NCBI GenBank assembly: GCA_945860955.1
Contig: CAMATH010000067.1
Span: 1 to 43,340 of the forward strand
DNA from: Planctomicrobium piriforme
GTDB taxonomy: Bacteria; Planctomycetota; Planctomycetia; Planctomycetales; Planctomycetaceae
Direction of reading: 5' to 3'
DNA length: 43,340 nucleotides
Part shown: piece by piece, positions 1,607 through 20,002 of the stretch
Layout of the letters: every line of letters starts with the position of its first letter
Numbering within the stretch: the stretch's first letter is position 1
Made by a program: the position numbers and the translations under genes
Notes under the pieces: model-generated
What the model was told of the DNA's origin: nothing
Seen by the model: only the letters and a program-made list of their open reading frames with translations
Database searches by the model: none

Positions 1607-2704
1607 CTACATCAACGTCGGCTTGATCACTCCACAGTTGATCTGACCCAGTGCCTGTTCGAGTTGCTGGAACATCTCTTCGTCGCGATAGACTCCGATG
1701 ATCGCACCACCAGAGCCGCAGTATTTTGCGCTGGCCCCCTGTTCTCGGGCGGTCTCGATCATGCGGACATGCGGGGCGGAGAGCTGGCAGATCTTGCGAC
1801 GGGTGTTGAAATTGCGGTCCATCAACTCCGACAGTTTCTCCTTGTCTCCCGCGAGCAACGCGGTCCGCCCCTCGGCCGCCAGGTCGGCGAAGTCGCGCAT
1901 CGCGCCGATCACCGCCTGATCCCCCTGGTCATACCGGGCGCGTAAAGGATTGTGCAGCACCTCGGTTGGCTCGCTACGGTCACGCGTGTAGGCGATGTAC
2001 AGCGGTGGCAACAAGTCGGCGTCGAGCGGTTCATAGTGACTACAAGGTGTCTGCCGGTCTTGTAGCTGCTGATATTGTGGCAACAAGTCGGCGTCGAGCG
2101 GTTCATAGTGACCGCATTGCAGGCCACACACCTCTTCCATCCGCTCCCGCGAGAAGTCCATGTAGACCACCCCCTCATAGACCTGAATCACGCGATCCTG
2201 CAACCCCGCCGCGATCCCCAGTTCATTGCGTTCGACGCTGAGCGCCAGCGACGGAAGCACCCGCAACGGAATCCGCACACCGTAAAACTCCATGAGCGCC
2301 CGCAGCGTGGCGACGATGATCGCGCTCGAACCGGCCATTCCCACCTGCCGGGGAATGTTCGTGGTGTAGCGGATCGAGAAGGTCTCGTTCCCCAACTCAA
2401 ACCCGGGATCGCCCGCCGCGTGGCGCTGGGCGCAAAACTCGGCGAACCGCTTGATTGTCGCCTTGATCAGTCGCACGCCGCCGTAGTAGCCATGCAACTC
2501 CACGTCGTGCAGCAGTTCGTGAATCGAACTGAATCGGCCATGGTCCTCCTGACTTGGTCGGATCTCGATGAACTCCCAGTCATACAGCGTCACCTCGGCG
2601 AAGAAATTGCGCACGATGACCGAGATGGTCTTGCCGTTGTATCCATCGGAGGGATTGCCCAGCAGTCCGGCCCGGGCGCAGGCGCGTTTTCGAATGATTC
2701 GCAT
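1607..2704 (-). CDS. GHMP-family sugar kinase (glucuronokinase-like)
   Basis: A kinase that probably phosphorylates a sugar at C1 in the cytoplasm. The N-terminal [12 protein letters not shown] (residues about 16-27) and the phosphate-binding loop [11 protein letters not shown] (about 115-126) are GHMP signatures, and the C-terminal [10 protein letters not shown] is the third conserved glycine motif. The ATG at 2704 is chosen because the 58 codons upstream read through galU in a low-complexity frame. From this ATG the protein has 365 residues, slightly long for the family. The start lies one base past the galU stop (2706-2708), so the two are almost certainly co-transcribed, with galU first. 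A kinase plus uridylyltransferase fits conversion of a sugar to a sugar-1-phosphate and then a UDP-sugar. Residues about 198-233 carry an odd in-frame duplication of [11 protein letters not shown] (see the repeat entry). The exact substrate cannot be read from sequence. Confidence 0.85.
2005..2112. repeat. 36-bp direct repeat, period 72 bp, inside the GHMP kinase gene
   Basis: Bases 2005-2040 and 2077-2112 are identical over 36 bases, separated by 36 unrelated bases. In the protein this gives [11 protein letters not shown] twice, 24 residues apart. Removing one 72-base period restores an uninterrupted family-like sequence ([17 protein letters not shown]), so a 72-base in-frame insertion/duplication is the simplest reading. 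Confidence 0.9.
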
Positions 2705-2705
2705 G

Positions 2706-3596
2706 TTAACCCTCGCGGTCGAGAACCTTCCGCGCGTGGGCGCGGAGCGATTCGCCGTACTTCGGGTCCGAGATCGCGAAATCGAAGAACGCGCGGAAGT
2801 AGCTTCCGAAGTTTCCGATGTCGAACCGCTTTTCTCCAGGGAGCAGTCGCATCGCGACCCCTTTGCCCCCCTGCTCAAGCACCCTCTGCATGGCGTCGGT
2901 CAGTTGAATCTCCCCGCCACGCCCCGGCTTCGTGAGGGCGAGTTCATCGAAGATCCGCGGACTGAAGACATACCGGCCGACGATCGCGAGATTGCTGGGT
3001 GCCTCATTGACAGCCGGCTTTTCGACGAGACGCCGGATGTCGATGCGGTTGCCAATCGGACCGGCCGGCTCGATGATTCCGTACTTCTTCACGTCTTGTG
3101 GCGGAACCTCCTCGACCGCCACGATGACGTCGGCCCCCGTGCGGTCGTATTCTTCGAGCATCCGCGACATGATCGTGGACTGGGCGTGCAACCCGATGAT
3201 CGAGTCCCCCAGCGCCACGGCGAACGGCTGATTCCCCACCAGCGGCCGCGCGCACAACACCGCGTGCCCCAACCCCAGTTGCCGACTCTGCCGGGTGTAG
3301 AAATAGTCGACTTTGTTCCGGTCGAATTCGAGTTCCGCGAGTTCCTCTTCGCGCCCCGACTCCCGCAGGTATTCGACCAGACTCTGGTCTTCGTCGAAGT
3401 GGTTTTCTATCGCCGACTTGCGGGCACCCGTCACGAACAGTACCCGCCGAATCTGGGCGGCCGACAACTCCTCGGCGACATACTGCACAACCGGTTTGCG
3501 TCCGACGGGCAGCATCTCTTTCGGCTGACTCTTGGTCGCGGGCAGCAGGCGGGTTCCATGTCCCGCGACCGGGACGACGGCGATATCAATCGACAT
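2706..3596 (-). CDS. galU: UTP--glucose-1-phosphate uridylyltransferase (GalU)
   Basis: Makes UDP-glucose from UTP and glucose-1-phosphate in the cytoplasm. The 296-residue length is normal for bacterial GalU. The nucleotide-binding N-terminus [20 protein letters not shown] (residues about 12-31), the following [10 protein letters not shown], the central ALGDSI and the VEKP segment are all as expected. The ATG at 3596 gives the standard start [12 protein letters not shown]. It is the first gene of a minus-strand pair with the GHMP kinase, which begins one base beyond its stop. Confidence 0.95.
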
Positions 3597-3885
3597 GAAT
3601 CAAGGCTCCAGAAGGGTATGATGAAAAGCCTACCAGTCGATCCACCGCCGGGCAACGACCCGGGTGCGGGAATTTTTCACTGTCGCGAATTGCCCGGAAT
3701 GCGGGAGGGCGACGATGAAGCATAGACTTGCGAACGTGGATCGATTACCGTCCAATTCGCGATTTTCGCGCACAGTCGGGACCGGCGTCCCAGGCGGACT
3801 TGGAGATTGACCCGACAGTACGGGGTTCGAATATGAAGTCGAGACTGAGCTCATTTCGCTGCCGCACAATGGTGGGAAACGAGAA

Positions 3886-4140
3886 ATGACATTTACGGAT
3901 CGGCAAGGTCAGTTCCTCGCGTTCATTCATCTCTACCGAAAACTCCATCGACAAAGTCCGTCCGAAAAGGAACTGGCACAGTACTTCCGCCTGTCGCCTC
4001 CCTCCGTACACAGCATGATTATCAAACTGGATCAGCTTGGGTTGATCGCCAGAGAAGCTGGGGTTGCGCGGTCTGTGTACGTTGTCGTTGCCGAGGACGC
4101 GATACCAGATCTTGAGCAGGTCGAAGGGCCGCCGTGGTAG
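3886..4140 (+). CDS. Small LexA/MarR-like winged-helix DNA-binding protein
   Basis: The 84-residue product is essentially one DNA-binding domain. It has FIHLYRKLHRQSPSEKELAQYFRLSPPSVHSMIIKLDQLGLI spread over residues about 13-55, with the helix-turn-helix in SEKELAQYFRLSPPSVHSMI and a short wing after it. This resembles the N-terminal domain of LexA without the C-terminal protease domain, so it cannot self-cleave. The ATG at 3886 starts exactly at the domain. It stands alone between galU (divergent) and a minus-strand gene. Its target is unknown; it may regulate a neighbour or itself. Confidence 0.75.
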   Translation: MTFTDRQGQFLAFIHLYRKLHRQSPSEKELAQYFRLSPPSVHSMIIKLDQLGLIAREAGVARSVYVVVAEDAIPDLEQVEGPPW

Positions 4141-4194
4141 ATTGTGGCAACCTTTTTGGGGCACTGCCTGGAATTCTCGAATCGCCGTGGTTTA

Positions 4195-4389
4195 CTACAA
4201 CCACGCATTCCACTTGCGTTTGACGAGCCATGCCTCTGCGGTGATGATGCTTTCGCTGGCACTCGGTTTGATCGGGTAGGCTCCCCAGGATCCATCGGTC
4301 TGGGCATACAGACAGGTACCAGCGAACGAACCGGTCAGGCTCAAGGCAAGCCACCATGTGATGGTGCCAAAATCCGTGGAGTCACACAA
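4195..4389 (-). CDS. Possible small exported protein, 64 aa
   Basis: A short frame with third-position GC typical of this genome. It begins with a hydrophobic segment (TITWWLALSLTGSFAGTCLYA, about residues 9-29) that could be a signal peptide, followed by a short polar, tryptophan-rich tail. The only in-frame start is TTG at 4389, with GGAGG lying too close to it, which weakens the call. I recognise no family. It could be a chance frame in the 300-base gap between its neighbours. Confidence 0.25.
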   Translation of the reverse strand: MCDSTDFGTITWWLALSLTGSFAGTCLYAQTDGSWGAYPIKPSASESIITAEAWLVKRKWNAWL

Positions 4390-4435
4390 TCCTCCGCGGT
4401 CCCGACGTCGAGAGACAGCCCGTCACAACCCGAAA

Positions 4436-4960
4436 TCAATTGCCGCGTGCTTTGATCGTCGCCAGCGACGCTTCCGTCTGCACCCGGGCATTGCGGGCTT
4501 CCAGAATCGACTGTCGGAACACGTCCCCCCGAGGAACTCCCGCCAGAACTGCCAGCGTTTCCCCCTTTTTACCGACCAGAATCAGATCCGCCGCCGGGTA
4601 GAAATCCTGTCCCGCCTTCTGGTCCACGACCACGTCGGCGATATCCTGCAGCAGCACCTTCTGGTACAGCTTCGGTCCCAGCGCGCTGCGGAACCGAATC
4701 GACCGGTTGGTCAGCACATACACCTGCCCGCACACCTTCTGCCAGAAAAATACCAGCACCCCCAGCGGCGCGGTCGGCAACGGGAAGATCAGGTGCGAAA
4801 GCTTGATTCCCCCGACCGAAATCGGCAAGCAGCCATACAACGAACCCAGCAACTTGCCAATGGAAGTCGCCGCGATCGAAGGATAAACCGTCTGAATTTC
4901 GGCTTCACTCGAAGCACTGACGCCGGAAATGGCCGGTGGCCGCTTGGTCATGAGGGGCAT
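4436..4960 (-). CDS. PH-domain-like (bPH) membrane-associated protein
   Basis: 174 residues. The middle contains a hydrophobic segment (HLIFPLPTAPLGVLVFFWQK, about 75-94) followed by a beta-rich stretch, YVLTNRSIRFRS ... VLLQDIADVVVDQ ... DLILVG. This is the layout of the bacterial pleckstrin-homology-like domains (YdbT/YdbS type) in which 'VLTNRRI' and 'I.L..I..V' are the conserved strands. It probably sits at the membrane. Starts at 4960 and 4951 are both possible. It is divergent from the oxidoreductase at 5178. Function is unknown. Confidence 0.6.
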   Translation of the reverse strand: MPLMTKRPPAISGVSASSEAEIQTVYPSIAATSIGKLLGSLYGCLPISVGGIKLSHLIFPLPTAPLGVLVFFWQKVCGQVYVLTNRSIRFRSALGPKLYQKVLLQDIADVVVDQKAGQDFYPAADLILVGKKGETLAVLAGVPRGDVFRQSILEARNARVQTEASLATIKARGN

Positions 4961-6562: not shown

Positions 6563-8518
6563 ATGTCGACGCCGTTGACCACCCACGCCGTTGGGATCGA
6601 TCTGGGAACCACCTATTCCTGCATCGCGTACCTAAACGAACAGGGGGAGCCGGTTTCGATACCGAATCGCGAAGGTGAGATTTCGACCCCCTCGGTCGTC
6701 ATGTACGACCGGGGGGAGGAAATTGTTGGGACCGAGGCGCTGCGAAACGCGATTCTGCATCCTCTCAACGTGGTGCAGAATTCGAAGCGTTTCATGGGGG
6801 ATCCGAACAAGGTCTGGACGATTGACGGCAAGAGCTACAATCCGATCGACGTCGCCGCCGCTGTCTTGCGCAAACTGATTGGCGACGCCCGTCAACAGAT
6901 CGGGAATATCGATCGTGCGGTCATCACAGTCCCCGCGCAGTTCAGCGAACGCCAGCGGCTGGCGACTGTGGAGGCGGGCAAGCGAGCGGGGCTCAAACAT
7001 GTCGACATCATCAACGAGCCGGTCGCCGCCGCCCTGTGTTACGTCTTGGGAACCGAAGGGCTGTGGTTCAAAGATCTCACCGACGCGCAACGGATTCTGG
7101 TTTATGACCTGGGGGGCGGGACGTTTGACCTGTCGCTCGTGAGCTACGAGCGCGATCAGGTGAAGGTGATCGCCAGCTCGGGAGATTTGCACCTGGGTGG
7201 GATCGACTGGAACCAGCGACTGATGGCCGCTGTCGCCGACCAGTTCAAACGCGAATTCGGCGTCGACCCCCGTTCAACCCCCGAGAGTCTGCAGCATCTC
7301 TCGTGGGAGGTGGAACAGTGCAAGCGCAGTCTGACCGTGCGACCTCGGGCGGCGCTCATCGTGCAACACGGCGGAAAACGCAAGACCTATCAGATCGAAC
7401 GGGAGCAATTCAACGGTCTCACGAACGACCTGCTGCGTCGCACCCAGGAGATCACGCAACGGCTGATTGAGCAGCACCGCAAGGGTTCCTCGCACCTTGA
7501 CGTCACGGTCCTGTCGACCGGCGGAAGTTCGCGGATGCCGATGGTCGACGACATGCTCAAGACCATTCGGGGCACAACGCTCAGCAAGGTACTCTCGCCC
7601 GATCAGTCGATCGCGCATGGCGCGACCTACTACGCGGGCATGCTGCTGACGAACAGTGAATTCGTCCATGCGATCAGGGACAAAAAGGCGGTCGCCCGGC
7701 TGTCGAAGATGCAACAGCAAAGCGTGAACGCCCGGGCTCTGGGAATTCTGATTCGCGACGTCGATACCAACCAGCGGGTGCCGTACTATCTGATTCCGGC
7801 GAACACCACACTCCCGGCGTCGGCGAACAAGGTGTTTGGGACGGTGGTGCCGAATCAGAAACGGGTGACCCTGGCGATTGTCGAAAGCGGTGCCAATCCG
7901 GGAGAGCAGCCTGTGGCGATCGGCAATTGCACAATCGAAGGACTCCCTCCCAAACTTCCGGCCGAGTCGCGAATTGAAGTAACCATCACGTACGACGCCA
8001 GCGCGAAAATCGCCGTCTCGGCCCGCGAAGTGACGAGTGGCAAGCAGGCCCGCGTTGAACTGCGCCGCGACAGCAGCCTGTTGACCCGGGAAATTGTCGA
8101 CGACGAGTCGGCAGAAATCGTCCTCGCAGTGGAATCGACTCCGCCGGCCAGCCCCGCGGTCGCACCCCAACCGTCACCCGTTGCGGCACGGCGGACACCG
8201 GCTCCTCCAGCGGCCGCGGCGGCCCGGCCCAAACCGCTCGCCGAGGCGGCGATCATGCTGTGTTCGAAGTGTGCCGAGCCGCTCAACTTGCGGGGGGAAT
8301 GCCCGGCGTGCGGTCCCCGACAATCGGCTCCGAAAGCGGCCCCCGCCCTACAACCCAAGGGGACACCCATAAAGACTCCACAGGTCAAGCCGGCGGGGGC
8401 CCGCGTCGCCCCGGTTCCCCCTCCGGTCGCCCCCGCGCAGAGAAAGACCCCGAAGCCGGCTCCTCCCCCTCCCCCCGACGGTGGAGAGGAAGAATTCTGG
8501 AAATACGTTGAACAATGA
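6563..8518 (+). CDS. Hsp70-family ATPase with proline-rich tail and C-terminal zinc ribbon
   Basis: 651 residues. The nucleotide-binding domain is complete: GIDLGTTYS (about 10-18), VYDLGGGTFDLS (about 180-191) and the adenosine motif STGGSSRMP. A beta-type substrate domain follows (about residues 395-520, NTTLPAS ... VTITYDASAKIAVSARE). The alpha-helical lid of DnaK is missing. In its place is about 50 residues of Pro/Ala, then a CX2C-X9-CX2C zinc ribbon (Cys567, 570, 580, 583), another Pro/Lys-rich linker and the short tail FWKYVEQ. The end is unlike DnaK EEVD or DDE tails. No DnaJ or GrpE gene is adjacent. Its stop overlaps the start of the MenC-like gene (ATGA at 8515-8518). The architecture suggests a specialised chaperone or scaffold rather than the housekeeping DnaK. 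Confidence 0.9.
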   Translation: MSTPLTTHAVGIDLGTTYSCIAYLNEQGEPVSIPNREGEISTPSVVMYDRGEEIVGTEALRNAILHPLNVVQNSKRFMGDPNKVWTIDGKSYNPIDVAAAVLRKLIGDARQQIGNIDRAVITVPAQFSERQRLATVEAGKRAGLKHVDIINEPVAAALCYVLGTEGLWFKDLTDAQRILVYDLGGGTFDLSLVSYERDQVKVIASSGDLHLGGIDWNQRLMAAVADQFKREFGVDPRSTPESLQHLSWEVEQCKRSLTVRPRAALIVQHGGKRKTYQIEREQFNGLTNDLLRRTQEITQRLIEQHRKGSSHLDVTVLSTGGSSRMPMVDDMLKTIRGTTLSKVLSPDQSIAHGATYYAGMLLTNSEFVHAIRDKKAVARLSKMQQQSVNARALGILIRDVDTNQRVPYYLIPANTTLPASANKVFGTVVPNQKRVTLAIVESGANPGEQPVAIGNCTIEGLPPKLPAESRIEVTITYDASAKIAVSAREVTSGKQARVELRRDSSLLTREIVDDESAEIVLAVESTPPASPAVAPQPSPVAARRTPAPPAAAAARPKPLAEAAIMLCSKCAEPLNLRGECPACGPRQSAPKAAPALQPKGTPIKTPQVKPAGARVAPVPPPVAPAQRKTPKPAPPPPPDGGEEEFWKYVEQ

Positions 8519-9621: not shown

Positions 9622-9736
9622 GAGCGACCAATGCGGCGACACGGTTGACCTGCCGTTTTCGCCGGTTGACTTGTGGGGGAGTTGAGGGATGAGAGGAACC
9701 ACGAAAGGCACGAAACACACGAAAATTCACGCAATG

Positions 9737-10123
9737 ATGGCAAACTCCAGGAAACCAGGCGAAATTGATGAGTACATCTCGCAGTTCCCAGACGATGTGA
9801 AAGCGGTACTCGAGGAAGTGCGGGGGGCGATCCGTCGGGCGGCTCCGGACGCCACCGAAGTGATTAGCTACCAGATGCCCGCCTTCCGGCAGCACGGGAT
9901 TCTGGTTGACTTCGCCGCCTGGAAGTAACACCTCGGGCTGTATCGGCCGATCTCTGGCGACAAGTCACTCGAGAAAGTGGCGGCACGCTACGCCGGGTCG
10001 AAGGGCAATCTGCAATTTCCGCCGGATGAGCCAATGCCCGTCGATCTGATCGAGCGGCTCGTGAAGTTGCGCGTGAAGCTGGACGCAAGGAAGGCAGCAG
10101 CGAAGGGGAAGAAACAGGGGTAG
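9737..10123 (+). pseudogene. DUF1801 (YdhG/iron-chaperone-like) gene broken by one in-frame stop
   Basis: From ATG 9737 to TAG 10121-10123 a single frame of 128 codons encodes a recognisable DUF1801 protein, interrupted only by TAA at 9926-9928 (codon 64). Before the stop: IDEYISQFPDDVKAVLEEVR and ISYQMPAFRQHGILVDFAAWK. After it: HLGLYRPISG, NLQFPPDEPMPVDLIERLVK and a lysine-rich end. In the family this junction reads FAAFK-N/K-HIGFY, so an AAA lysine codon changed to TAA would explain it. DUF1801 proteins have a frataxin-like fold and are sometimes called iron chaperones. Either a recent nonsense mutation or a sequencing error is likely, since no other damage is visible. Confidence 0.8.
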
Positions 10124-10177
10124 TTCCAGGCAGGACAAACGCGGTCGAGGCAACAAGTCTTTCAGTCGCTGAATCGG

Positions 10178-10669
10178 TCAAAATCCGTCATCGGAATGTG
10201 GGATCGTCGACTTCGGTGCAATCTCGGGTATTCGTGCCCGACGCTTCGACAATTGAGAAAAAAACGCCTCGATATCCGTCCGAATCACCTTGGGAGAGTT
10301 CTGGTCTCGCATCAATGTCCGAAGCGAATCCATCGTTTCTGGCAGCAAGTCATGTTCGAGGTTGCCCAACACATCCCAGGCCACGCCCGCTTCCGCCCGG
10401 CCCATTGGATCACGTCCAAAGTCGGTAATGGCCAGCACGCAGTATTGCTCGACGAATCTCCGCTCGTCGACAGTCTTGCACCGCCTGGCAGCGTCAATCG
10501 CTCGCTCCCCCAAGCAGTCCCCTTTCCAGCGCGATTCTCGGGATGCGACCCAGAATTCCGCGCGGAAGACCAGCTCATTTGAGTGGTACCAGACCCACGC
10601 CACAAGAGCGATTGCCGCCGCGAAAACCGCGGCTTGCACCACTCGCTTTTTCGCGGTCGGGATACTCAT
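10178..10669 (-). CDS. Small single-pass membrane protein, unknown function
   Basis: 163 residues from ATG 10669. A basic N-terminus (IPTAKKR) leads into one hydrophobic helix (VVQAAVFAAAIALVAWVWYH, about 10-29), followed by a soluble alpha-helical domain of about 130 residues with two cysteine-containing helices and LRTLMRDQNSPKVIRTDIEA near the end. Upstream in-frame codons run through repeat DNA and are not coding-like, which decides the start. I recognise no family. It is transcribed opposite to the AAA+ genes. Confidence 0.6.
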   Translation of the reverse strand: MSIPTAKKRVVQAAVFAAAIALVAWVWYHSNELVFRAEFWVASRESRWKGDCLGERAIDAARRCKTVDERRFVEQYCVLAITDFGRDPMGRAEAGVAWDVLGNLEHDLLPETMDSLRTLMRDQNSPKVIRTDIEAFFSQLSKRRARIPEIAPKSTIPHSDDGF

Positions 10670-10758
10670 GCTTGCCAAGCTCACTCCAGAACTGCGGATG
10701 GACCGGTCCCGTTTCGCGTCGTCCAAGATGATCGAGTCCAAACGACAGGTCAAGCTTG

Positions 10759-10815
10759 CCGACCCAACCGCCGGCTGCGCCGTCGGGCGCGACGCCGCAG
10801 GAGCGTCGTCGCGAC
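10759..10815. repeat. 57-bp dispersed repeat, copy 1
   Basis: Identical to 10949-11005. It contains short self-complementary arms (CGACGC ... GCGTCG) and is extremely GC-rich. It lies upstream of the membrane-protein gene on its 5' side and before the first AAA+ gene. Confidence 0.9.
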
Positions 10816-10948
10816 ATGTGGCGGACGGCGTTCCTACGACGCCGCGGTCTGGACAACCTTCGGCAGAGTTGAGTGGAGACAGATTGCAACTTCGCATCGA
10901 AAACGGCTGCTCGCACGACGATGTAGTCATACACCGCGTCACGCGTAC

Positions 10949-11005
10949 CCGACCCAACCGCCGGCTGCGCCGTCGGGCGCGACGCCGCAGGAGCGTCGTC
11001 GCGAC
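10949..11005. repeat. 57-bp dispersed repeat, copy 2
   Basis: Perfect direct repeat of 10759-10815 at a distance of 190 bases. The 130 bases between the copies hold no gene. The pair sits in the leader of the three-gene AAA+ operon, which begins about 90 bases later. Confidence 0.9.
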
Positions 11006-11094
11006 AAAAAGGCGCGAACTTGAGAATTGTTTCATGGTCTATGTAGAACCAGAGAACAGATACGCTCTTCGGGTTCACACTTCTTGGTCGTTCC

Positions 11095-14000
11095 ATGCCC
11101 GAGTTTTCCTTTGAAGTCGCGATTCAGTATCGACTGCTCTCCAATCAGTTGCTGCTGGCCGACCCCTTGCTCTTCCCCGAAATCGCCTGCCTGGACGATT
11201 CTCCGCGCCGGTTACGCCGCATGCTTGTGCGCCGGCTGGCCGACGTCGTGAAGGGGCTGGAGCCCGAGGACATTCATCAACGGTGGCCCACGGTCGCGCC
11301 CACCGCCGGCCGATTTCTGTTGACCATCCCCCCCGTCGCAAACGATACGCTCCGCCGCCGACCGGTTCGGCTGCGAATGCCCTATTCCCAATGGCGGCAC
11401 CACTCGGGAACCTGGGTCGCGTCGGTTCCTGCGCTCGGTATCGATGTTGTCGCGGACGATGAAGCGACTCTGCTGGCACAGCTTGAACCGCAAACCCGTG
11501 CCGCTCTCAGTCGCCGCAAAATTCCCGGTTCGCTGCTCGCACTCGCCCTGCTTGCCGAGGAACGTCGCATGCGCGTCAAGCCGCTCGCGTTGCGGGTCAA
11601 CCGCCCCACTCTGAAAGAGGCGGCGATCAAGCGTCGAGCGGATCGAAAGTCCGACAAATCGGTGCTGGAAGAGGTGTCCGTTGACTTGTCGAAATCCTCC
11701 GGGCACCCCCTCTTTGAACGCGATGCGCTGGTGTCCCAGCTCGCCCGCCGACTGACCGGCCCCGGTCTCCAGAGCGTGCTGCTGGTGGGGCCTTCGGGTG
11801 TCGGAAAGTCGGCGATTGTCCACGAACTCGCCCGGCGTGCCGTCGAGTTTGGTCTCGCGGGGTCGACAATCTGGTCGACACGCGGTTCCAGTCTGGTCGC
11901 CGGCATGACCGGATGCGGCATGTGGCAACAGCGCTGCCAGGATCTGGTGGCCGAAGCACGTCAGACGCGGGCCGTTGTTCATCTGGATAACCTCATCGAA
12001 CTTCGCGAAGTCGGCAAAGGGGGAGGGAGTACCACCGGAGTCGCCGCCATGCTCCGTCCCAGTCTGATGCGCGGCGATCTGCGCGCCATCGCCGAATGCA
12101 CCCCCGAGCAACTCGCCCTCATCGAGCGTGACGAACCCCAGTTGATCGAGTCGTTCACCGTCCTCAACGTCGATCCTCCCACGGAGTCGGCCACACGCGA
12201 GATCTTAAGGCGGTTCGCAAACCATGAGTCGGCCCGCCGGTCCCCCGCAGCCACTCTGTCCGACGCCGCGCTCGACGAACTCGATCGTCTGCATCGTCGC
12301 TACGCCACCTACAGTGCCGCCCCGGGTCGACAGTTGCGATTCTTGTCCAATCTGCTGGAAGATTGCCGCGATCCACGAGAACTGACTCCGGTCGATGTCG
12401 TCACCGCGTTCTCGCACGAAACCGGGCTCCCGTTGTTCATGCTCGACGATCAGACGCCGCTCGACTTGCAGCGGACGCGCGACTGGTTCACCGCCCGGAT
12501 CCTGGGGCAGCCTGAGCCGATTGATCTGGTGGCGGGCCTGCTGGCGGCGGTCAAGTCGGGACTGACCCGGCGCGGAAAGCCCATCGCGGGGTTGCTGTTC
12601 ATCGGACCGACCGGCGTCGGCAAGACCGAGACGGCCCGAGCGCTCGCGGAATTTCTGTACCGCGATCCCGAGCGCATGATTCGCATCGACATGAGCGAGT
12701 ATGCCGACGTCGCCGCGGTCGATCGACTGATTGGCGGAAGCTGTTCAACCCCGGGCCTTCTGACGCAAAAGGTTCGCGATCAGCCGTTCATGGTCGTGCT
12801 GCTCGATGAATTCGAAAAGGGACATCCCCGGCTGTTTGACCTGTTGTTGCAGGTGCTGGGGGAAGGACGCCTGACCGACGCCGGTGGTCGGCTCGCCGAC
12901 TTCACCAACACGGTGGTGATAATGACCTCAAACCTAGGAGCCGAGTCGTTTCGCGGGGGAGGTTTCGGTTTTCAGACGGGAGACGCCAGCGAAAGATCGA
13001 TCGCGGCGGGTCAGCACTTTCAGCGCGAAGTCCAGAGGTTTTTGCGTCCCGAGTTGTTCAACCGCATCGATCAGATTGTGCCGTTCGCACCGTTGTCGCG
13101 CGATTCTATTCGTGAAATCGGCCGGCGCGAGATCACGAAGCTGACGGGGCGGATTGGCTTGAAATCACGGCAGGTCCGTTTCGAAATCACTCCCGAGGCG
13201 CTCGATCGCCTGACCGAAAACGGCTACGACCCGCGTTACGGGGCACGACCATTGAAGCGGGAAATCGAACGACGACTCACCGCGGTACTGGCGGAGCGAT
13301 TGTGTCGCAGCACCGGTAACGATCCGCTCGAATGCCGGGTCGATGTCGTGGCTCGCGAGCTGTCGGTGACGGTCCATGCGGTTTCGACAAAGGGGGGACC
13401 ACCAGGCACCACTGGGGTCGCTGTTCGGGATGAATTGTTGAAGGTGAGTCAACTCCGCCGGCGCGTGCAGCGGGTCGAGACGAGCGGTGCGGTGTTGAGG
13501 CTACGGAACGAAGTGGAGATGGCCCGGCTCGCCAAAGCAGCGCGCGAGCGTCGTGCGAAACGCCGGGGAATCACGTTGAAATACCAGTTCGGAAAAGAGG
13601 AGCAGAAGCTCATCGCCATCGAACGGTTGATTGGCGATGTCGACGCCCTCTCGCGGGACGTTGTCGAAATGGAACAGACATGGCTTGATGCCTGGTACGC
13701 CGGTGAGCGGCTCGACTCCGCAGAACTGTCGGCCTGGCACGCCTTGTGTCACGACCAGATGATTCAGGTCTTACGCCGGGTGTTGCGGGTGCGCGACGAG
13801 CAACCGGGAATTGTCACCCTCTATCTGTTTTCTGCGGACCGTGAATTCCTATCCACCCTGGCGGAAGCGTACCTGGAGATCGCGCGGGACGGCGGGGCAC
13901 GCCCCGGGCTGTTCTGGTTGCAGCGACCCGATCCGCGTCACTCGCCGGCGAAATCTCCTGAACTTCCGGACGACACTCCAGCGACAGTTCCCCGGCCCGC

Positions 14001-14448
14001 GGCGCGGCTCACGGCGGCGCTCGCCACGGGAGAAGCCCCCCCCGCGCGACTCTTGCTGGAGGCGTGGAACAAGACTCCCGAAGAATTCCTGCCGGTCGAG
14101 GAGTCGGCCGTGGGGGCGGCACTCGCCGTTTCCAGCGCCGACGCGATCAGTCTGCTCGGTAACGAAGCGGGCAGACATGTGCTGGTCGACTGCAACAGCC
14201 GGCGGTACGACTGCGTGGTCGAAGTCTCGTCGGGACTGCTCAGCGGGTATCATCCTCCCGACAATGTCGGGCGGGAGGGTTCGTTCGCGCACGTGGAGAA
14301 CCGCCGAAAGTATGATCTGTACGAAGGGGCGTGCCACGACGCGCGACTGACGGCGGAACTTGAGGTGTCGGCCAGCACGTTCATCGAGACGGTCCGCCGG
14401 GCCGCCGAGCTGGCACTCACGGAAAACGCTCTGGGGCTGCTCGACTGA
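11095..14448 (+). CDS. Clp/Hsp100-like double-AAA+ ATPase A (1117 aa)
   Basis: First of three linked paralogues. An N-terminal domain of about 200 residues without Clp-N repeats is followed by AAA-1: Walker A GPSGVGKS at 232-239, Walker B-like VVHLDN with Asn299 in place of the catalytic Glu, and a pore-loop position GMTGCGMW (270-277) with Cys274 where Clp proteins have Tyr. AAA-2 is catalytically complete: Walker A GPTGVGKT (504-511), VVLLDEFEK (Asp571, Glu572), sensor-1 Asn613, LFNRID (Arg657), and sensor-2 GARP (Arg718). The D2 segment between IGG and GLLT (546-557) lacks the canonical GYVG loop. No ClpB middle domain or ClpP-binding loop is seen. About 390 extra residues follow: a basic coiled-coil region (about 785-890) and an alpha/beta tail with NEAGRH (1023-1028). 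The ATG at 11095 opens the set; its stop overlaps the next ATG by one base. Confidence 0.9.
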   Translation: MPEFSFEVAIQYRLLSNQLLLADPLLFPEIACLDDSPRRLRRMLVRRLADVVKGLEPEDIHQRWPTVAPTAGRFLLTIPPVANDTLRRRPVRLRMPYSQWRHHSGTWVASVPALGIDVVADDEATLLAQLEPQTRAALSRRKIPGSLLALALLAEERRMRVKPLALRVNRPTLKEAAIKRRADRKSDKSVLEEVSVDLSKSSGHPLFERDALVSQLARRLTGPGLQSVLLVGPSGVGKSAIVHELARRAVEFGLAGSTIWSTRGSSLVAGMTGCGMWQQRCQDLVAEARQTRAVVHLDNLIELREVGKGGGSTTGVAAMLRPSLMRGDLRAIAECTPEQLALIERDEPQLIESFTVLNVDPPTESATREILRRFANHESARRSPAATLSDAALDELDRLHRRYATYSAAPGRQLRFLSNLLEDCRDPRELTPVDVVTAFSHETGLPLFMLDDQTPLDLQRTRDWFTARILGQPEPIDLVAGLLAAVKSGLTRRGKPIAGLLFIGPTGVGKTETARALAEFLYRDPERMIRIDMSEYADVAAVDRLIGGSCSTPGLLTQKVRDQPFMVVLLDEFEKGHPRLFDLLLQVLGEGRLTDAGGRLADFTNTVVIMTSNLGAESFRGGGFGFQTGDASERSIAAGQHFQREVQRFLRPELFNRIDQIVPFAPLSRDSIREIGRREITKLTGRIGLKSRQVRFEITPEALDRLTENGYDPRYGARPLKREIERRLTAVLAERLCRSTGNDPLECRVDVVARELSVTVHAVSTKGGPPGTTGVAVRDELLKVSQLRRRVQRVETSGAVLRLRNEVEMARLAKAARERRAKRRGITLKYQFGKEEQKLIAIERLIGDVDALSRDVVEMEQTWLDAWYAGERLDSAELSAWHALCHDQMIQVLRRVLRVRDEQPGIVTLYLFSADREFLSTLAEAYLEIARDGGARPGLFWLQRPDPRHSPAKSPELPDDTPATVPRPAARLTAALATGEAPPARLLLEAWNKTPEEFLPVEESAVGAALAVSSADAISLLGNEAGRHVLVDCNSRRYDCVVEVSSGLLSGYHPPDNVGREGSFAHVENRRKYDLYEGACHDARLTAELEVSASTFIETVRRAAELALTENALGLLD

Positions 14449-17400
14449 TGCTGCTCAACCTCCCGGTTTACATTGAAGTCAAGAAAGAGCGTGGCGGCGC
14501 GGTGCATCATTGCCAGCCGCTGTTCGTGTCGAACGTCAACGCCACCGACTCGCATCTGGGGCTGGCGATGAGCAAGCTCTCCAGCCGACTGCATCTATTG
14601 CTCAGCAATCTGGGCGCTTCGGACCGGCACGACCTCCTGTCCCAGTGCAGCTTCTCGCCCGATCTCAAAACGCACGTGTTGTCGCTCGCGCTCGAACTGC
14701 GCACCGACCTGGTTCGTGTGAAGCTGTTGTTCGTCACGTTTCAGGCGGTGGGGCGAATTGTCGCTCTGTGCCCCGCGATTCCCGAACTCTGCTTTGAACT
14801 GCGCACGTTGCAGGAATTGGAGTCGCGGGCGACGCACGTCTTCACCCGGCACTTCCGCAAGCAGGAAAAAGCCGGCTCCCTGGAATCGGTCGCCCCGGTA
14901 TTGCGCCGGCTGTCGCTCTCGGGGCAGGCGTGGGTGACCGCCGTCGAGATCGACGTGAAGACCCGGCATATCCCTCGCGAAAAGATCCAGCGAAAACTCG
15001 CCGCCCTATTCGACGACACCAATGTCGACGGCGCGACCGAATTGCAACGAGTGGGACGCTGTCTCGATTACCTCTACCCGGGTGAACTCCACGAAGCACT
15101 GGGACGCGATTCCGAAGTCGAATTGCTCGACCGGCTGCTGCGCGAGGAAGACAATCGTCCGGTCGTGCTGGTGGGACCACGCCTGGTCGGGAAGAGCGCG
15201 ATCCTACATCAGTGCGTCCGTCGGCGTGTCGAACGACGTGGAAAACCGTACGTGAGCCGCAATTGCGTCTGGCAGGTGTCGCCGCAACGGTTGATCAGCG
15301 GCATGATGTACGTCGGCGCGTGGGAGGGCCGCGTCCAGGCGATTCTCAAAGAAGTCCGCAAACGCAAACATGTCCTGTATATCGACGATCTGCTGGGGTT
15401 GTATCTCGTCGGACAAAGTCGGGATGCGAACCTCTCGATCGCCGACATGGTGAAGCCCTCGGTCTTGCGGCGGGAAGTGCGACTGCTCGCCGAGCTGACC
15501 ACCGAAGCGTGGCAACTCCTTCAGGAAAAGGATCGTGGACTCGCGGACCAGTTCCAGGTGATTCGGATCGCGGCGATGGGAGAATCCGAGACACGCCGGG
15601 TGATGCTGCAAGTGCAACGACGCCTGGAGTCGACCCACCGCTGCGAGTTCTCCCTCGACGCGCTTCCGGTCATTCTGCGATTGCATGAGGCGTATATTCG
15701 CGACGCGGCGTTCCCCGGGAAATCGGCGGCGTTCTCGCGGCAGTTGGCGCACCGTCGCGAGAAGTTGCCGATCTCGCGGGACGATGTGGAAGAGGAATTC
15801 CACCGCAAAACCGGGTTGGCGCGCGACCTGCTCGACGATCGCCGCAAGCTGGAACGGGACGAAGTCATCGCCCGCTTGCGGACCAGTCTGGTCGGGCAGA
15901 CCGAGGCGGTCTCGGCCGCCGCCGATGTTGTCCTGACAACCAAATCGCGGTTGTCGGATCCGCGCCGGCCGATCGCGACACTGCTCTTTCTGGGACCGAC
16001 GGGGGTCGGCAAGACACAGTGCGCCAAGGCGCTGGCGGAGACGTTGTTTACCAATCCCGCGCGGCTGCTGCGATTTGACATGAACGAATTCTCGGCCCCC
16101 TGGTCCGCGGCGCAACTCGCGGGGACCGCGGGGGAGCCGGATGGACTCTTGGCGGGGGCGGTGCGGCGACAACCTTTCTCGGTGGTGCTGCTCGACGAAA
16201 TTGAAAAGGCGCATCCCAATGTCTTCGACCTGCTGCTGCAAGTGACCGGCGAAGGCCGGCTGACCGATGCACTGGGGCGGACCGCCGACTTTACCAACAC
16301 GGTCATTGTGATGACGTCAAACCTGGGGGCCGACTCGGCCGCCGGCCGAATTGGCCTCGCCGAAGGAGACGACTGGCGTCAGCGGGCGTATCACAAGGCG
16401 GCGGAAGCGTACTTTCGTCCCGAGTTCTTCAATCGAATCGACCGCATCGTTCCATTCACTCCGCTATCGCGGCCACAGATGCGGGAGGTCGCCGACCTCG
16501 TGTTGCGGCGGATCTTCGAGCGTGACGGGCTGGTACGCCGACGGGTGGCGCTGTCGGTTGAGCCGCTGGCGATGGAGCGGATTGTCGACGCGGGATATCA
16601 CCCCAAGTTTGGCGCCCGGGCATTGCAGCGGGCGATCGAAAGCCAGCTCGTGCAGCCGGTCGCGGCCCGGCTCGCCGAAGCGCGTCCCGACCTCCCATCG
16701 GTGATCACCGTGTATCCGCAACCGGGCGGAGTGGCGACGCGGGTTGACCCATTGGAAGGGGTTGCCACCGTTCCCTTTCCGTTCGGCTGGACCGCCGACG
16801 ATCCGGAACTTGAGTGGCCCCAGATCGAACAAGTGATTGCCCGGGTTAAAGAACGGTGCGACCAGTCGCGGGTGAGCGGGGTGGTGAGCGGCACGGTGTC
16901 TGTCGAGCAGTTGCACTATTTCGCTGTTCGGGAACAGTTGATGAAGGTACAGGAGCTGCGCGAGCAGGTGCTGGATCAGCGAAAGTCGCGAATGGGAAAG
17001 GGGACCGCGGTTGGCGGAGCGCGTGTACCCGGACCTGTCACCACCAAGGCGGTCATCAATTATTCCAAAGCCAATGCGGTCACGGTGGGCAACTACCGAA
17101 GTTTGAACGCGGCCCGCGACATTCACGACTATCTGAATGAAGTCGCGAACTCCGCCCCGCGACCGGAGGCGGCGGCGCGACTGGCGCAGGAACTCTGTCT
17201 GGAGACCGCCTGGCTCGCGACGTTGCAGAGCGCGAAAGAACTGCCGATTCGCGCGTTGGTGATCGTCCGGAGCCTCGCACACTCGTGGCGTTTTGCGGAG
17301 CTGCTTTCCACCCGGTTGGGAGAACTGTTTGAACTGTTGGGGTTTGACGTGGAACGTCGCCTGGCAGGCCGCCCCGATCGACCCAATGCGCTGCTGATCA

Positions 17401-17750
17401 GCGGTGTTGGCGTGTGGCCCCTGGTCTCGTTGGAACAGGGAGTCCACGTCGTCCTGCGTCCGCAGGAGAATCTGTTTCCCGTCCAGGTGACGGTGCGGGT
17501 CGCTGACGAAACGCCATTCCCGGATCAGGTTGAACTGTTCCTAAAGCGACGATCGGACTGGCTCGCGGGATTGGCGACCGGTCGGGCGACCATCGCGGAA
17601 GATCCCGATCCTCCCGGCCGACTGTTGCGGTTTTACAACGAACTGGGTCCGACGCTCGATCTGCGGACCGGACAATCGACGCCAGGTTTTCCCTCGCGCG
17701 AAGAACATCGCCGACTGCTGCTGTCGGCACTGGAGGTGTCGACTTCATGA
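14448..17750 (+). CDS. Clp/Hsp100-like double-AAA+ ATPase B (1100 aa)
   Basis: Second paralogue, starting in a TGATG overlap with the previous stop. A unique N-domain of about 210 residues starts with a beta-strand (LPVYIEVKKE) as in A. AAA-1: GPRLVGKS at 243-250, VLYIDD with Asp314 replacing the catalytic Glu, and pore loop GMMYVGAW with Tyr288 kept. AAA-2: GPTGVGKT (516-523), VVLLDEIEKAHP (Asp583, Glu584), MTSNLG sensor-1, FFNRID Arg finger, GARALQR sensor-2. The D2 pore segment AGTAGEPDGLLAG (about 558-570) again lacks the GYVG loop. The roughly 350-residue C-terminal extension parallels that of A, including a comparable motif LEQGVHVVLRP near its end. The stop overlaps the next start by four bases (ATGA), so A, B and C should be made together. 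Confidence 0.9.
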   Translation: MLLNLPVYIEVKKERGGAVHHCQPLFVSNVNATDSHLGLAMSKLSSRLHLLLSNLGASDRHDLLSQCSFSPDLKTHVLSLALELRTDLVRVKLLFVTFQAVGRIVALCPAIPELCFELRTLQELESRATHVFTRHFRKQEKAGSLESVAPVLRRLSLSGQAWVTAVEIDVKTRHIPREKIQRKLAALFDDTNVDGATELQRVGRCLDYLYPGELHEALGRDSEVELLDRLLREEDNRPVVLVGPRLVGKSAILHQCVRRRVERRGKPYVSRNCVWQVSPQRLISGMMYVGAWEGRVQAILKEVRKRKHVLYIDDLLGLYLVGQSRDANLSIADMVKPSVLRREVRLLAELTTEAWQLLQEKDRGLADQFQVIRIAAMGESETRRVMLQVQRRLESTHRCEFSLDALPVILRLHEAYIRDAAFPGKSAAFSRQLAHRREKLPISRDDVEEEFHRKTGLARDLLDDRRKLERDEVIARLRTSLVGQTEAVSAAADVVLTTKSRLSDPRRPIATLLFLGPTGVGKTQCAKALAETLFTNPARLLRFDMNEFSAPWSAAQLAGTAGEPDGLLAGAVRRQPFSVVLLDEIEKAHPNVFDLLLQVTGEGRLTDALGRTADFTNTVIVMTSNLGADSAAGRIGLAEGDDWRQRAYHKAAEAYFRPEFFNRIDRIVPFTPLSRPQMREVADLVLRRIFERDGLVRRRVALSVEPLAMERIVDAGYHPKFGARALQRAIESQLVQPVAARLAEARPDLPSVITVYPQPGGVATRVDPLEGVATVPFPFGWTADDPELEWPQIEQVIARVKERCDQSRVSGVVSGTVSVEQLHYFAVREQLMKVQELREQVLDQRKSRMGKGTAVGGARVPGPVTTKAVINYSKANAVTVGNYRSLNAARDIHDYLNEVANSAPRPEAAARLAQELCLETAWLATLQSAKELPIRALVIVRSLAHSWRFAELLSTRLGELFELLGFDVERRLAGRPDRPNALLISGVGVWPLVSLEQGVHVVLRPQENLFPVQVTVRVADETPFPDQVELFLKRRSDWLAGLATGRATIAEDPDPPGRLLRFYNELGPTLDLRTGQSTPGFPSREEHRRLLLSALEVSTS

Positions 17751-20002
17751 CACATCGCATCCCGGTGATTGTGTGGCAGACGCCCACGGGAACGTTCACG
17801 GCCACAACGCTCGATGGTCCCCGCGCGTCGGCCGTCGACGTCACGCCGGTCGACGCGCTGGCGCAACTGAAGGCGTACCTTGTTTGGCTCTTTCGACAGC
17901 ACGAAGGGGAACCCGCCGACCTGCGTGAGCCGGAACTGCGCGACTACAAGATTCGAGTCCGTCCTGAATACCGCACGACCAACGACAGCGTCTTTCCGGT
18001 CGGCGAAACCGTGCAGATCCATGTGACCGCAGTCTTGGGAAAACGCCGCGATGGTTCTGGAGTCTGCATTTTTCCCACTCTGGGACACCGCTTCACCTAT
18101 CAACCAACCGACCCGCTGAATGAACTGATCAACGACGCCGTCGCTCAATCTCTGGGGCGTTGTACACCGCAGGAACTCGTGCTGCGACTGGCACCGCCCC
18201 AAATCAGCCTGTCGGCGATTCACCTGCAAGACCGCCGTTCGCGTTCGAACGACGAGGAATTCGCGCCACCCGTTCTCACACGGGTCGCCGACCGGCTGGG
18301 GCAGCGGAATCGCTGGCTGCGCTCACCACGCGGTATCGGACGCGAACCACTGGTGCGTTCTCTGGCCGACCGGCTGACCACCGGCCGGGCGAGCCTTTTG
18401 ATTCTGGGGGAATCGGGGGTTGGAAAGTCGACCGTCATCACCGAAGCGGCATTGCTGTTGCGGCGGGATCTCAAACGCGATTCCGAGTCGCCACCACCTG
18501 TGTTGTGGCAGACGAGCGCCCGCCGGCTGATCGCGGGAATGATGTACCTGGGACAGTGGCAGGAACGGGTTGAACAGGTGATCGCGGCACTCGGAAACAA
18601 CGCCGCCGTGTTGTGTGTGGAGAATCTGCTTGACCTGGTGCGGACCGGTAACGAGCAGCCCGCGGCCAGCGTCGCCGCGTTTCTGATTCCGTACCTGGAG
18701 CGGGGCGAACTGCGACTGGTCGCCGAGGTGACACCGCGGGAACTCGACGCCTGTCGTCGCCTGCTTCCGGGATTGGCCGACCTTTTTGAAGTCGTTCGCG
18801 TGCCGGATTTTTCCCCCACCGAGGCCCGGACCGTGCTGGAACAGATGCTGATCACAGGTTCTCGGCAATATCATCTGGAGGCCGAAGCGGGACTGGCGGA
18901 ACTGATCCAGCGGCTGTTCCGGCGATTCGTCCCGTACGCGACGTTTCCCGGGAGAGTCGCGCAATTCACCAGGAGGATGCTGCACGAGCGACGATCTGTG
19001 GGGGCCACCCATGTTAACACTGCCGACGTTCTCGCTCAGTTTCGACACGACACCGGGCTCCCCAACGTTCTGTTGCGTGACGACATCCCGTTACCACAGG
19101 GAGAGGTGCTGAATCACTTCCAGTCACAAATCCTTGGGCAGCCGGCCGCTTGCCAGGCCGCCGCGCATGTGGTGACGATGGTCAAGACCGGCCTCAACGA
19201 TCCGCGTCGGCCGCTGGGAGTTCTGTTGTTCTGCGGCCCGACCGGTGTGGGAAAGACCGAAATGGCCAAGGCGCTCGCCCGGTACCTGTTCGGAGATCGC
19301 GACGCCCACGAGCGGCTGGTCCGTCTCGATATGAGCGAATATTCGGGCTTCGGGGCCGCCGAGCGGCTGGTCTCCAGCTCCAACGGCGAAGTGAGCGAAT
19401 TCATCCGCAAGATGCGCAGGCAACCGTTCGCCGTCGTGTTGTTTGATGAAATCGAGAAGGCCGCACCCGAGGTTCACGATGCGCTGCTGGGTCTTTTGGA
19501 CGAAGGTCGACTGACAGATCGATTCGGGCGGACTACGAACTTCCAGAGCGCGGTAGTGATTCTGACGAGCAACGTCGGCAGTGACCGCGCGACCGGCGTG
19601 GGGTTTGACTCGTCGGCCCCCGCGTCGCTGGAGAAGATTGTCCTGTCGGAATTCCGCCCGGAATTCGTCAATCGCCTCGACGCGATTGTGTCGTTCGTCG
19701 CGCTCGACACCGAGACCATCAGTCGACTGGCCGAACGGGAATTGGAATCGGTCGCGAAACGGGAGGGGCTGGCCAAGATGGGATTGAAGCTCACTTGGAC
19801 CGCGGACGTGGTCGCACATCTGGCACGAGTCGGGTGCGATCTGCGGTATGGAGCGCGACCGTTGCAGCGCGCGGTGGAACGGCAGGTCGTTGCGGTCGTG
19901 GCCGAGTGGCGGCTGGAACATCCGCAGGTCGCCGACTCACAAATCGTCCTGGAACTGCGAAACGGCGCGGTCGTCGTGCGGCCAGTCTTTCGAAGAATGT
20001 AG
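17747..20002 (+). CDS. Clp/Hsp100-like double-AAA+ ATPase C (751 aa)
   Basis: Third and shortest paralogue. A different N-domain of about 190 residues begins with IPVIVWQTPTGTFTATTL, a strand-rich start that recalls small HicB-like folds. AAA-1: GESGVGKS at 221-228, VLCVEN (Glu292-Asn293) instead of DE, so both Walker B acids are changed, and pore loop GMMYLGQW with Tyr267. AAA-2: GPTGVGKT (497-504), VVLFDEIEK (Asp567, Glu568), LTSNVG sensor-1, FVNRLD Arg finger, GARPLQR sensor-2. In place of the D2 pore loop is VSSSNGEVSEF. The protein ends soon after sensor-2 and has no C-terminal extension, unlike A and B. A mixed ring of A, B and C is an attractive but untested idea. Confidence 0.9.
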   Translation: MTHRIPVIVWQTPTGTFTATTLDGPRASAVDVTPVDALAQLKAYLVWLFRQHEGEPADLREPELRDYKIRVRPEYRTTNDSVFPVGETVQIHVTAVLGKRRDGSGVCIFPTLGHRFTYQPTDPLNELINDAVAQSLGRCTPQELVLRLAPPQISLSAIHLQDRRSRSNDEEFAPPVLTRVADRLGQRNRWLRSPRGIGREPLVRSLADRLTTGRASLLILGESGVGKSTVITEAALLLRRDLKRDSESPPPVLWQTSARRLIAGMMYLGQWQERVEQVIAALGNNAAVLCVENLLDLVRTGNEQPAASVAAFLIPYLERGELRLVAEVTPRELDACRRLLPGLADLFEVVRVPDFSPTEARTVLEQMLITGSRQYHLEAEAGLAELIQRLFRRFVPYATFPGRVAQFTRRMLHERRSVGATHVNTADVLAQFRHDTGLPNVLLRDDIPLPQGEVLNHFQSQILGQPAACQAAAHVVTMVKTGLNDPRRPLGVLLFCGPTGVGKTEMAKALARYLFGDRDAHERLVRLDMSEYSGFGAAERLVSSSNGEVSEFIRKMRRQPFAVVLFDEIEKAAPEVHDALLGLLDEGRLTDRFGRTTNFQSAVVILTSNVGSDRATGVGFDSSAPASLEKIVLSEFRPEFVNRLDAIVSFVALDTETISRLAERELESVAKREGLAKMGLKLTWTADVVAHLARVGCDLRYGARPLQRAVERQVVAVVAEWRLEHPQVADSQIVLELRNGAVVVRPVFRRM

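Follow-up and report, generated by a model that had tools for sequence, protein, structure and literature searches.

Clp/Hsp100 rings are taught as homohexamers, and the question raised by the locus described here is what three different giant Clp/Hsp100-like ATPases, encoded side by side, do in one bacterium. The locus occupies positions 11095-20002 of a 43,340-nucleotide stretch of Planctomicrobium piriforme DNA (GCA_945860955.1, contig CAMATH010000067.1), the whole of which is referred to as the window. Gene A (11095-14448, 1117 amino acids), gene B (14448-17750, 1100 amino acids) and gene C (17747-20002, 751 amino acids) lie on the forward strand, as do all their parts given below; they were assigned by open reading frames (ORFs), Pfam matches and orthologues. 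A and B are composed of an N-domain, a degenerate first AAA+ module (D1), a second module of the active type (D2) and a C-terminal arm that is predicted to derive from a release factor. C consists of an N-domain, D1 and D2 without such an arm. An earlier note on this DNA had described three coupled ORFs of these lengths, overlapping by one base (A/B) and four bases (B/C), and its coordinates were borne out. The best explanation at present is that a single Clp-type AAA+ machine with a double ring is built from A, B and C, each of them an obligate subunit, and that it is compatible with ClpP and guided to the ribosome by dead release-factor arms. We put this forward tentatively, giving it a little less than an even chance; the heteromeric assembly is supported by genomics, while the action on the ribosome and together with ClpP is what we infer.

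Co-occurrence and distribution of the three genes

A profile of the B N-domain and D1 was scanned over 84,980 species genomes and yielded 78 loci; the scan started from B patterns, so that genomes having only A or only C lay outside its reach. Linkage was counted at 72 B loci. The six loci left out were a near-copy of the window's locus (L059), an identical second copy (L128), two fragments (L133 and L136) and two divergent loci (L134 and L135). Gene A was located at most 3 kb upstream of B at 54 of the 64 testable loci, and C at most 3 kb downstream of B at 47 of 61. The genes are thus not usually found apart, a possibility that the earlier note had considered. At the A/B junction, the genes overlap by 4 bases in 36 and by 1 base in one of the 54 linked pairs; for B/C, the numbers are 19 and two of 47.

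A missing A was sought in 12 genomes (ten with unlinked genes, two with too little upstream DNA) and recovered elsewhere in the genome in all of them, eleven times as a full-length gene at 862-1400 bits and once as two pieces, each reaching a contig end. Likewise, a missing C was sought in 13 genomes, namely 11 of the 14 unlinked cases (L088, L090 and L121 were left out) and two untestable ones, and all 13 contained it elsewhere (780-1120 bits). Since cross-matches to the other two paralogues did not exceed 617 bits in the A search and 567 bits in the C search, the identifications of A and C are clear. In one genome (G035), A, B and C even reside on three separate contigs. Among 397 genomes of the class, for each of which the best two candidates were scored, 28 contained a C-type match, which scored at least 740 bits in 27 of them and was truncated by a contig end in the other. 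Every one of these 28 also had a second match, either of the A/B type or to a long paralogue. B-like matches among 99 related genomes led to linked triples in several of them. As the dispersed genes are still present together, the set must be kept by something other than common transcription. A, B and C form separate orthologous groups that recur in an unchanged order in many genomes, beyond what chance would give, and occur together in the genomes tested, linked or not, which upholds the claim of one system of three paralogues and suggests an obligate three-subunit complex.

The triple was found in several phyla, beyond the Planctomycetota for which its distribution had been proposed for study. 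By record title, the 78 loci mostly belong to Planctomycetota; many records are metagenome bins, whose titles may be wrong. Acidobacteria and relatives (L060, L062, L073, L080, L098, L106, L127, L128 and L131), Verrucomicrobia (L094, L097, L103, L111, L115, L122 and L136) and Eremiobacterota (L124-L126) are represented as well; further titles are Riflebacteria, Sericytochromatia, Saprospiraceae or Lewinella, Actinomycetota, a proteobacterium and Polyangiaceae. Cultured carriers of B include Zavarzinella formosa, Sulfidibacter corallicola and Acanthopleuribacter pedis. A few loci show peculiarities. At L080, C is located 4.9 kb upstream of B (2460-4838 and 9734-13297), with A elsewhere on the same contig. 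In the nearest relative (L051/L059, 225-3440), gene A exists as interrupted frames (225-1604, 1354-1866 and 1836-3440) adjoining intact B and C genes, which in this draft assembly may be an error or decay. L127 and L128 (Acanthopleuribacter pedis) are two scaffolds on which one and the same A-B-C locus apparently occurs, its coordinates and scores being equal on both.

Domain layout and motifs of the AAA+ modules

AAA_2 and ClpB_D2-small were matched in each of A, B and C and the first AAA module more weakly, in line with the two AAA+ modules per protein that had been noticed before. AlphaFold models were obtained for A (pLDDT 86.9, pTM 0.58) and B (pLDDT 89.5, pTM 0.78). In fold searches, residues about 190-765 of both models matched Clp chains (D1-D2 of ClpC, ClpA and Hsp104), the best matches, with several rows tied, having Z 36.0 and rmsd 7.5 for A and Z 30.1 and rmsd 8.4 for B, each over 560 aligned residues. 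No release-factor chain was among the 50 matches listed for full-length A and B, but Clp chains fill these lists, so that the arms and the N-domain were barely probed.

The N-domains comprise residues about 1-195 of A (11095-11679) and 1-208 of B (14448-15071), delimited by profile-profile comparison and the secondary structure of the models, and residues about 1-190 of C (17747-18316), delimited by profile-profile comparison. They are related to each other (A-C 98.0%, A-B 96.7%, B-C 85.3% in profile-profile comparison). Clp_N was not among the 19 Pfam families matched by B, nor among the best 25 of 41 for A and of 44 for C. The shared non-Clp N-domain of the earlier note was thereby substantiated, and this domain, common to A, B and C, is to all appearances new. 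A likeness to HicB, suspected from the sequence, gave no more than 1.5% in the comparison, in which the HicB set consisted largely of wrong frames.

Motifs were counted in 145 proteins (46 A, 58 B and 41 C) and in 17 canonical Clps. In D1, the Walker A lysine was kept in 144 of the 145 proteins. The Walker B D-E pair occurred in none, the glutamate being absent from all: A has G at the first place (45/46), B has D-D or a similar pair, and C has E or D followed by N, S, R or D. The D1 finger columns contained neither R nor K in 40 of 46 A, 57 of 58 B and all 41 C proteins. By contrast, Walker B DE and the double arginine finger were both present in 17/17 canonical Clps. In D2, the Walker A lysine, the Walker B D and E, the sensor-1 N, the arginine finger and the sensor-2 R were retained in 145/145. 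However, a G[YF][VIL]G string was detected in the searched D2 segment of only one A protein (1/46) and of no B (0/58) or C (0/41) protein, whereas all 17 canonical Clps possess PPGYVG at the pore-loop position, and the pore-loop stretch to Walker B is shorter (median 24 residues, versus 29 in all 17 canonical Clps). In the window, the shortened sites of A (12724-12768, residues 544-558) and B (16113-16157, residues 556-570, aligned to ClpB chains) and the corresponding site of C (19364-19408, residues 540-554, aligned to ClpC) are devoid of GYVG. The aromatic pore-loop residue of D1 is kept in the common forms (GFG, YVG, YLG); A of the window has GCG. The matched defects that had been reported for the three paralogues therefore stand and extend, over 145 proteins, to the D1 Walker B, the finger and the D2 pore loop, the loss of the latter having been overlooked.

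Downstream of D2 sensor 1, at the same place as in ClpP-binding Clp ATPases, all three proteins have a hydrophobic-G-hydrophobic tripeptide. It reads FGF in A (12964-12972, residues 624-626; the model has a pLDDT below 50 at 623-627, as in a flexible loop), IGL in B (16350-16358, residues 635-637) and VGF in C (19598-19606, residues 618-620), where it is aligned with the VGF of ClpC. At this position, 138 of the 145 proteins have glycine plus a large hydrophobic residue (A 43/46, B 54/58, C 41/41), and the tripeptide is conserved whereas the remaining residues of the loop vary. Within the canonical set only two of 17 proteins, both of the ClpC type, contained it. The former statement that no ClpP docking loop is visible was thus wrong. 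Tripeptide loops of Clp ATPases are established to bind to the pockets of ClpP (PMC8745299). Two ClpP genes adjoin each other elsewhere in the window's genome (G000:C253:552-1799, reverse strand; loci L190 and L191).

C-terminal arms of A and B

C ends 43-63 residues past the sensor-2 GAR motif (rows with GARP). A and B continue into arms covering residues 772-1117 (13408-14445) and 778-1100 (16779-17747), respectively, which were assigned by profile-profile comparison. With D2-small removed, the A arm matched RF1/RF2 at 94.3% (E 9.6e-8) over nearly the whole release factor, the B arm at 84.0% (E 7.7e-6) over 82 columns of the PCRF core only. Matches were also obtained to the arms of the single-gene relatives described below (A 97.4%, E 1.4e-11; B 97.3%, E 2.1e-11), and the two arms matched each other at 93.0%. 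Reversed controls gave 0.1% and 5.3% for the A arm and 0.1% and 0.4% for the B arm. The distance from GxH to R[TS]Y, which is 123-127 residues in release factors (15/20 measurable), has a median of 39 in A (17/46) and of 60 in B (13/58); it appears that the GGQ region is deleted in both arms. GGQ strings in the C-terminal regions (1/8 single-gene relatives, 4/46 A, 4/58 B) are chance ones, none being in matching context. In the model of A, the arm is made up of helices, a strand-helix-strand unit, a later strand-helix-strand-strand unit and a last helix, an order which we take to resemble a release factor without domain 3. Judged by these comparisons, the C-terminal approximately 340 residues of A and B probably derive from a class-I release factor of the RF2 type. 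The earlier note correctly treated A and B as part of a paralogous set and missed this probable origin of their C-termini.

Single-gene relatives and descent

Prompted by the PCRF-like look of the A and B C-termini, 21 genomes were searched with the Pfam PCRF model. Besides release factors, it matched long frames that turned out to be Clp-like relatives, and eight single-gene relatives of the triple were recovered. AAA, AAA_2, D2-small and PCRF were present within one protein in all seven scanned with Pfam, PCRF being above the Pfam cut-off (E 1.3e-10 in L169, 9.8e-7 in L172, 3.8e-18 in L168, 1.9e-7 in L171, 1.9e-10 in L170, 7.1e-16 in L055 and 4.7e-16 in L056). The eighth, L173, has a shorter frame that PCRF matched partially, and it lies outside this seven-protein scan. 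In profile-profile comparison with D2-small removed, the single-gene relatives matched RF1/RF2 at 99.9% (E 8.4e-34). Their alignment with RF1/RF2 revealed RF2-like FWD-type residues followed by the PCRF core and, further along, an RF-1-like region without GGQ or SPF and a tail of the R-Y ... D-RTG type; a codon-reading motif (SPF or PxT) was not found in this alignment. The D1 D-E pair was absent from all seven with a D1 (0/7), which retain a basic residue near the finger, GYVG was missing in 8/8, and the ClpP-type tripeptide was present in 8/8. None of the eight genomes bearing the single-gene form yielded a match to the B N-domain, and no long PCRF frame occurred in ten triple-bearing genomes searched or in the window's own genome. 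These findings fit a single function that is exerted by a homomeric form in some bacteria and by a heteromeric form in others, though the genomes are few and related. HEAT repeats are located N-terminally in L169, L171 and L172, at the place of the triple's own N-domain.

The relationship to characterized Clp proteins was analyzed with a FastTree tree of 68 D1-D2 sequences (555 columns). A, B and C were each monophyletic (support 1.0, 1.0 and 0.65), and the triple grouped with the divergent L134 and L135 (0.90) and the eight single-gene relatives (0.99), away from the 17 canonical Clps. Against the NCBIfam models, A, B and C scored 328.6, 351.9 and 271.4 bits for ClpB (cut-off 1232.1), 288.5, 322.6 and 235.6 bits for ClpA (cut-off 993.15) and 240, 257 and 207 bits for ClpV (cut-off 884.95). 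Hence, none of them is a clear orthologue of ClpA, ClpB or ClpV, an outcome that the earlier note had left to be decided. Other Clp proteins of the window's genome have much higher AAA_2 scores, so that A, B and C supplement the usual Clp set. The triple and its relatives make up a new Clp ATPase family whose arms probably stem from a release factor and which was split into an obligate trio. This leaves little room for the view that the three are ordinary ClpA/ClpB/ClpC paralogues whose sequences have drifted, which we deem very improbable: the D1-D2 folds agree with those of ClpC, ClpA and Hsp104 (see the Z values above), but the scores far below the equivalog cut-offs, the separate clade, the shared lesions and the arms contradict it.

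L134 (1613-8322) and L135 (5778-15308), titled proteobacterium and Polyangiaceae, are triple-like loci branching next to A and C. L057 and L058 encode Clp-like proteins of 785 and 772 amino acids with canonical D1 motifs, which belong to a branch just outside the family; Pfam did not detect PCRF in L057. Each of the two adjoins a large gene, and L058 also has an HSP70-like neighbor.

Neighboring genes

ORF clustering around the 78 loci produced loose families only, and by eye 14 representatives of the neighbors presumably correspond to ABC transporters, short-chain dehydrogenases, response regulators and the like. From 148 neighboring proteins selected at 51 loci, 130 were scanned with Pfam and PADLOC. 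No family was present in more than five of the 130, the commonest matches being to ATPase models, and the neighbors of the triple are mostly ordinary metabolic genes. Nothing constant was seen by eye near the eight single-gene relatives. In the window, a 651-amino-acid HSP70-family protein is encoded 2.6 kb upstream of A (6563-8518, forward strand; Pfam HSP70, E 3.8e-97), with an enolase-superfamily gene in between; HSP70 was not recovered as a conserved neighbor by the ORF clustering. PADLOC matches of A, B and C were confined to the AAA parts and did not exceed 96 bits, and the DolB and PDC-M37B families were not among the matches listed for the 130 neighbors. In phage and plasmid records, no relative covering 80% of the B N-domain and D1 was found, nor did any occur in the viral contigs scanned.

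Proposed mechanism and alternative explanations

According to the preferred explanation, the family would go back to one ancestral protein, a fusion of a ClpC/ClpA-like ATPase with a complete RF2-type release factor. The assembly of A, B and C is probably a mixed hexamer. D1, with its Walker A retained, would bind ATP and hold the ring together like a clamp, while D2 would be the only motor, hydrolyzing ATP and making the ring work more like a lever than like a threading motor. As the D2 pore loop is absent, we expect a lever or remodeller in which threading is weak. The arms of A and B would bring the machine to ribosomes with an open A site (stalled, idle or damaged) and leave the peptide unreleased; without GGQ and SPF, they could take the place of a release factor on the ribosome without ending synthesis. 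The tripeptides would then dock on ClpP, and the nascent chain or a ribosome-bound protein would be pulled off and degraded or handed over.

Several observations weigh against this explanation. The mixed ring is deduced from genomic co-presence. Of the 37 genomes of the class with a match, nine have no C-type match; one of these (G052) is a single-gene case and six have one match of 454-481 bits, which is probably a single-gene form, but in G218 and G285 both of the candidates scored were of the A/B type, and neither was a C. The distribution is patchy (28/397 genomes of the class), and no translation or protease gene was found as a regular neighbor of the triple. Pfam did not see PCRF in A and B of the window, and in the orthologous arms it did so in one of 50 A (E 0.0089) and none of 63 B proteins, just as the ten triple-bearing genomes searched were devoid of a long PCRF frame; the release-factor ancestry of A and B therefore relies on profile-profile comparison, which is weaker for B. 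Because the ribosome-binding parts SPF/PxT and GGQ are gone, ribosome binding is a guess. The missing D2 pore loop argues against ordinary threading into ClpP, and the tripeptide may be a relic of a ClpC-like ancestor.

The alternative that survives best keeps the obligate mixed ring and assigns the arms another task: as a general assembly or substrate-binding part, they would serve to remodel some other protein complex instead of acting on the ribosome. The loss of the codon-reading and GGQ motifs in the single-gene relatives, the shortened GGQ region of A and B, the low identity of the arms among orthologues (mean column identity 22% for A and 17% for B, below that of the whole proteins) and the lack of an arm in C all speak for it. 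On the other hand, orthologues of A and B across several phyla have retained the arm, as have the single-gene relatives, and the elements of the release factor still follow one another in their proper order; this alternative is in our opinion unlikely, if to be taken seriously.

A patchy defense or stress system that detects an attack on translation and responds by acting on ribosomes or killing the cell is less probable still. A large stand-alone multi-gene system present in 28 of 397 genomes of the class and scattered over phyla would suit this idea, but the weak PADLOC matches to AAA parts, the lack of any defense family that matches more than five of the 130 neighbors, the mostly metabolic surroundings and the lack of relatives in phage and plasmid records and in the viral contigs scanned do not.

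Three separate homohexamers that work in sequence and are tied only by shared regulation appear more improbable again. Translational coupling is indeed common, as the 4-base overlaps at 36/54 A/B and 19/47 B/C junctions demonstrate; yet co-presence holds for dispersed genes too, and A, B and C have the same defects, not complementary ones. The earlier note had left the choice between a hetero-oligomeric ring and a relay. The ring is the best reading from genomics, whereas no evidence was found for a relay.

Comparison with known systems

The closest likeness of the preferred machine, a three-subunit ring with release-factor arms, to ClpC and ClpA consists in the D1-D2 architecture and fold, the intact D2 ATPase motifs and the ClpP-type tripeptide at the same place. 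What separates the triple from them is the loss of the D1 Walker B glutamate, the double arginine and the D2 GYVG, the absence of Clp_N among the matches listed, the presence of three obligate paralogues and the release-factor arms on two of them. With bacterial RF2, the single-gene relatives share the FW-type helix region, PCRF, the RF-1-like region and the Y..D.RTG tail; unlike RF2, the arms have no GGQ at the matching place and no SPF, are joined to a Clp ATPase and are strongly degenerate in A and B. The ClpB-like defense proteins DolB and PDC-M37B of PADLOC resemble the triple in the D2 AAA (58-96 bits), but the match spans about one AAA domain and their partner genes are not present.

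A working mixed double ring with a dead D1 and an active D2 is known from Pex1/Pex6 (PMC10518020). The combination of a dead D1 and an active D2 recurs in the triple, where it is deduced from motifs, and its mixed ring is proposed from obligate co-presence of the genes. Pex1/Pex6 belongs to another AAA+ clade (eukaryotic type II AAA+) and has two subunits in place of three. Moreover, its D2 retains substrate-gripping pore loops, whereas the triple has lost the D2 loop and keeps the aromatic loop of D1. An AAA+ ATPase paired with a release-factor-like protein is found in eukaryotic ribosome quality control, in which Cdc48 acts with Vms1/ANKZF1 (PMC6514570, where neither Clp nor PCRF is mentioned). 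Vms1, however, is a separate, active hydrolase of the archaeo-eukaryotic release-factor family, while the arm of the triple stems from the bacterial family, is fused and has no GGQ. No description of a fusion between a Clp ATPase and a release factor was found in the literature searched.

A dead release factor fused to a Clp ATPase would link the machinery of unfolding or degradation to the ribosome and predicts an association with ribosomes. The set of three, kept even when its genes are scattered, would be a natural case for studying the division of labor in a mixed double ring, with the single-gene form as comparison. It is possible, though doubtful, that the triple in its entirety, a mixed Clp ring of three subunits steered to ribosomes by dead RF2 arms, corresponds in bacteria to what Cdc48-Vms1 is in ribosome-associated quality control. 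It would then also be a heterohexamer with a double ring that does not belong to the Pex1/Pex6 lineage and whose homomeric single-gene form exists in other bacteria.

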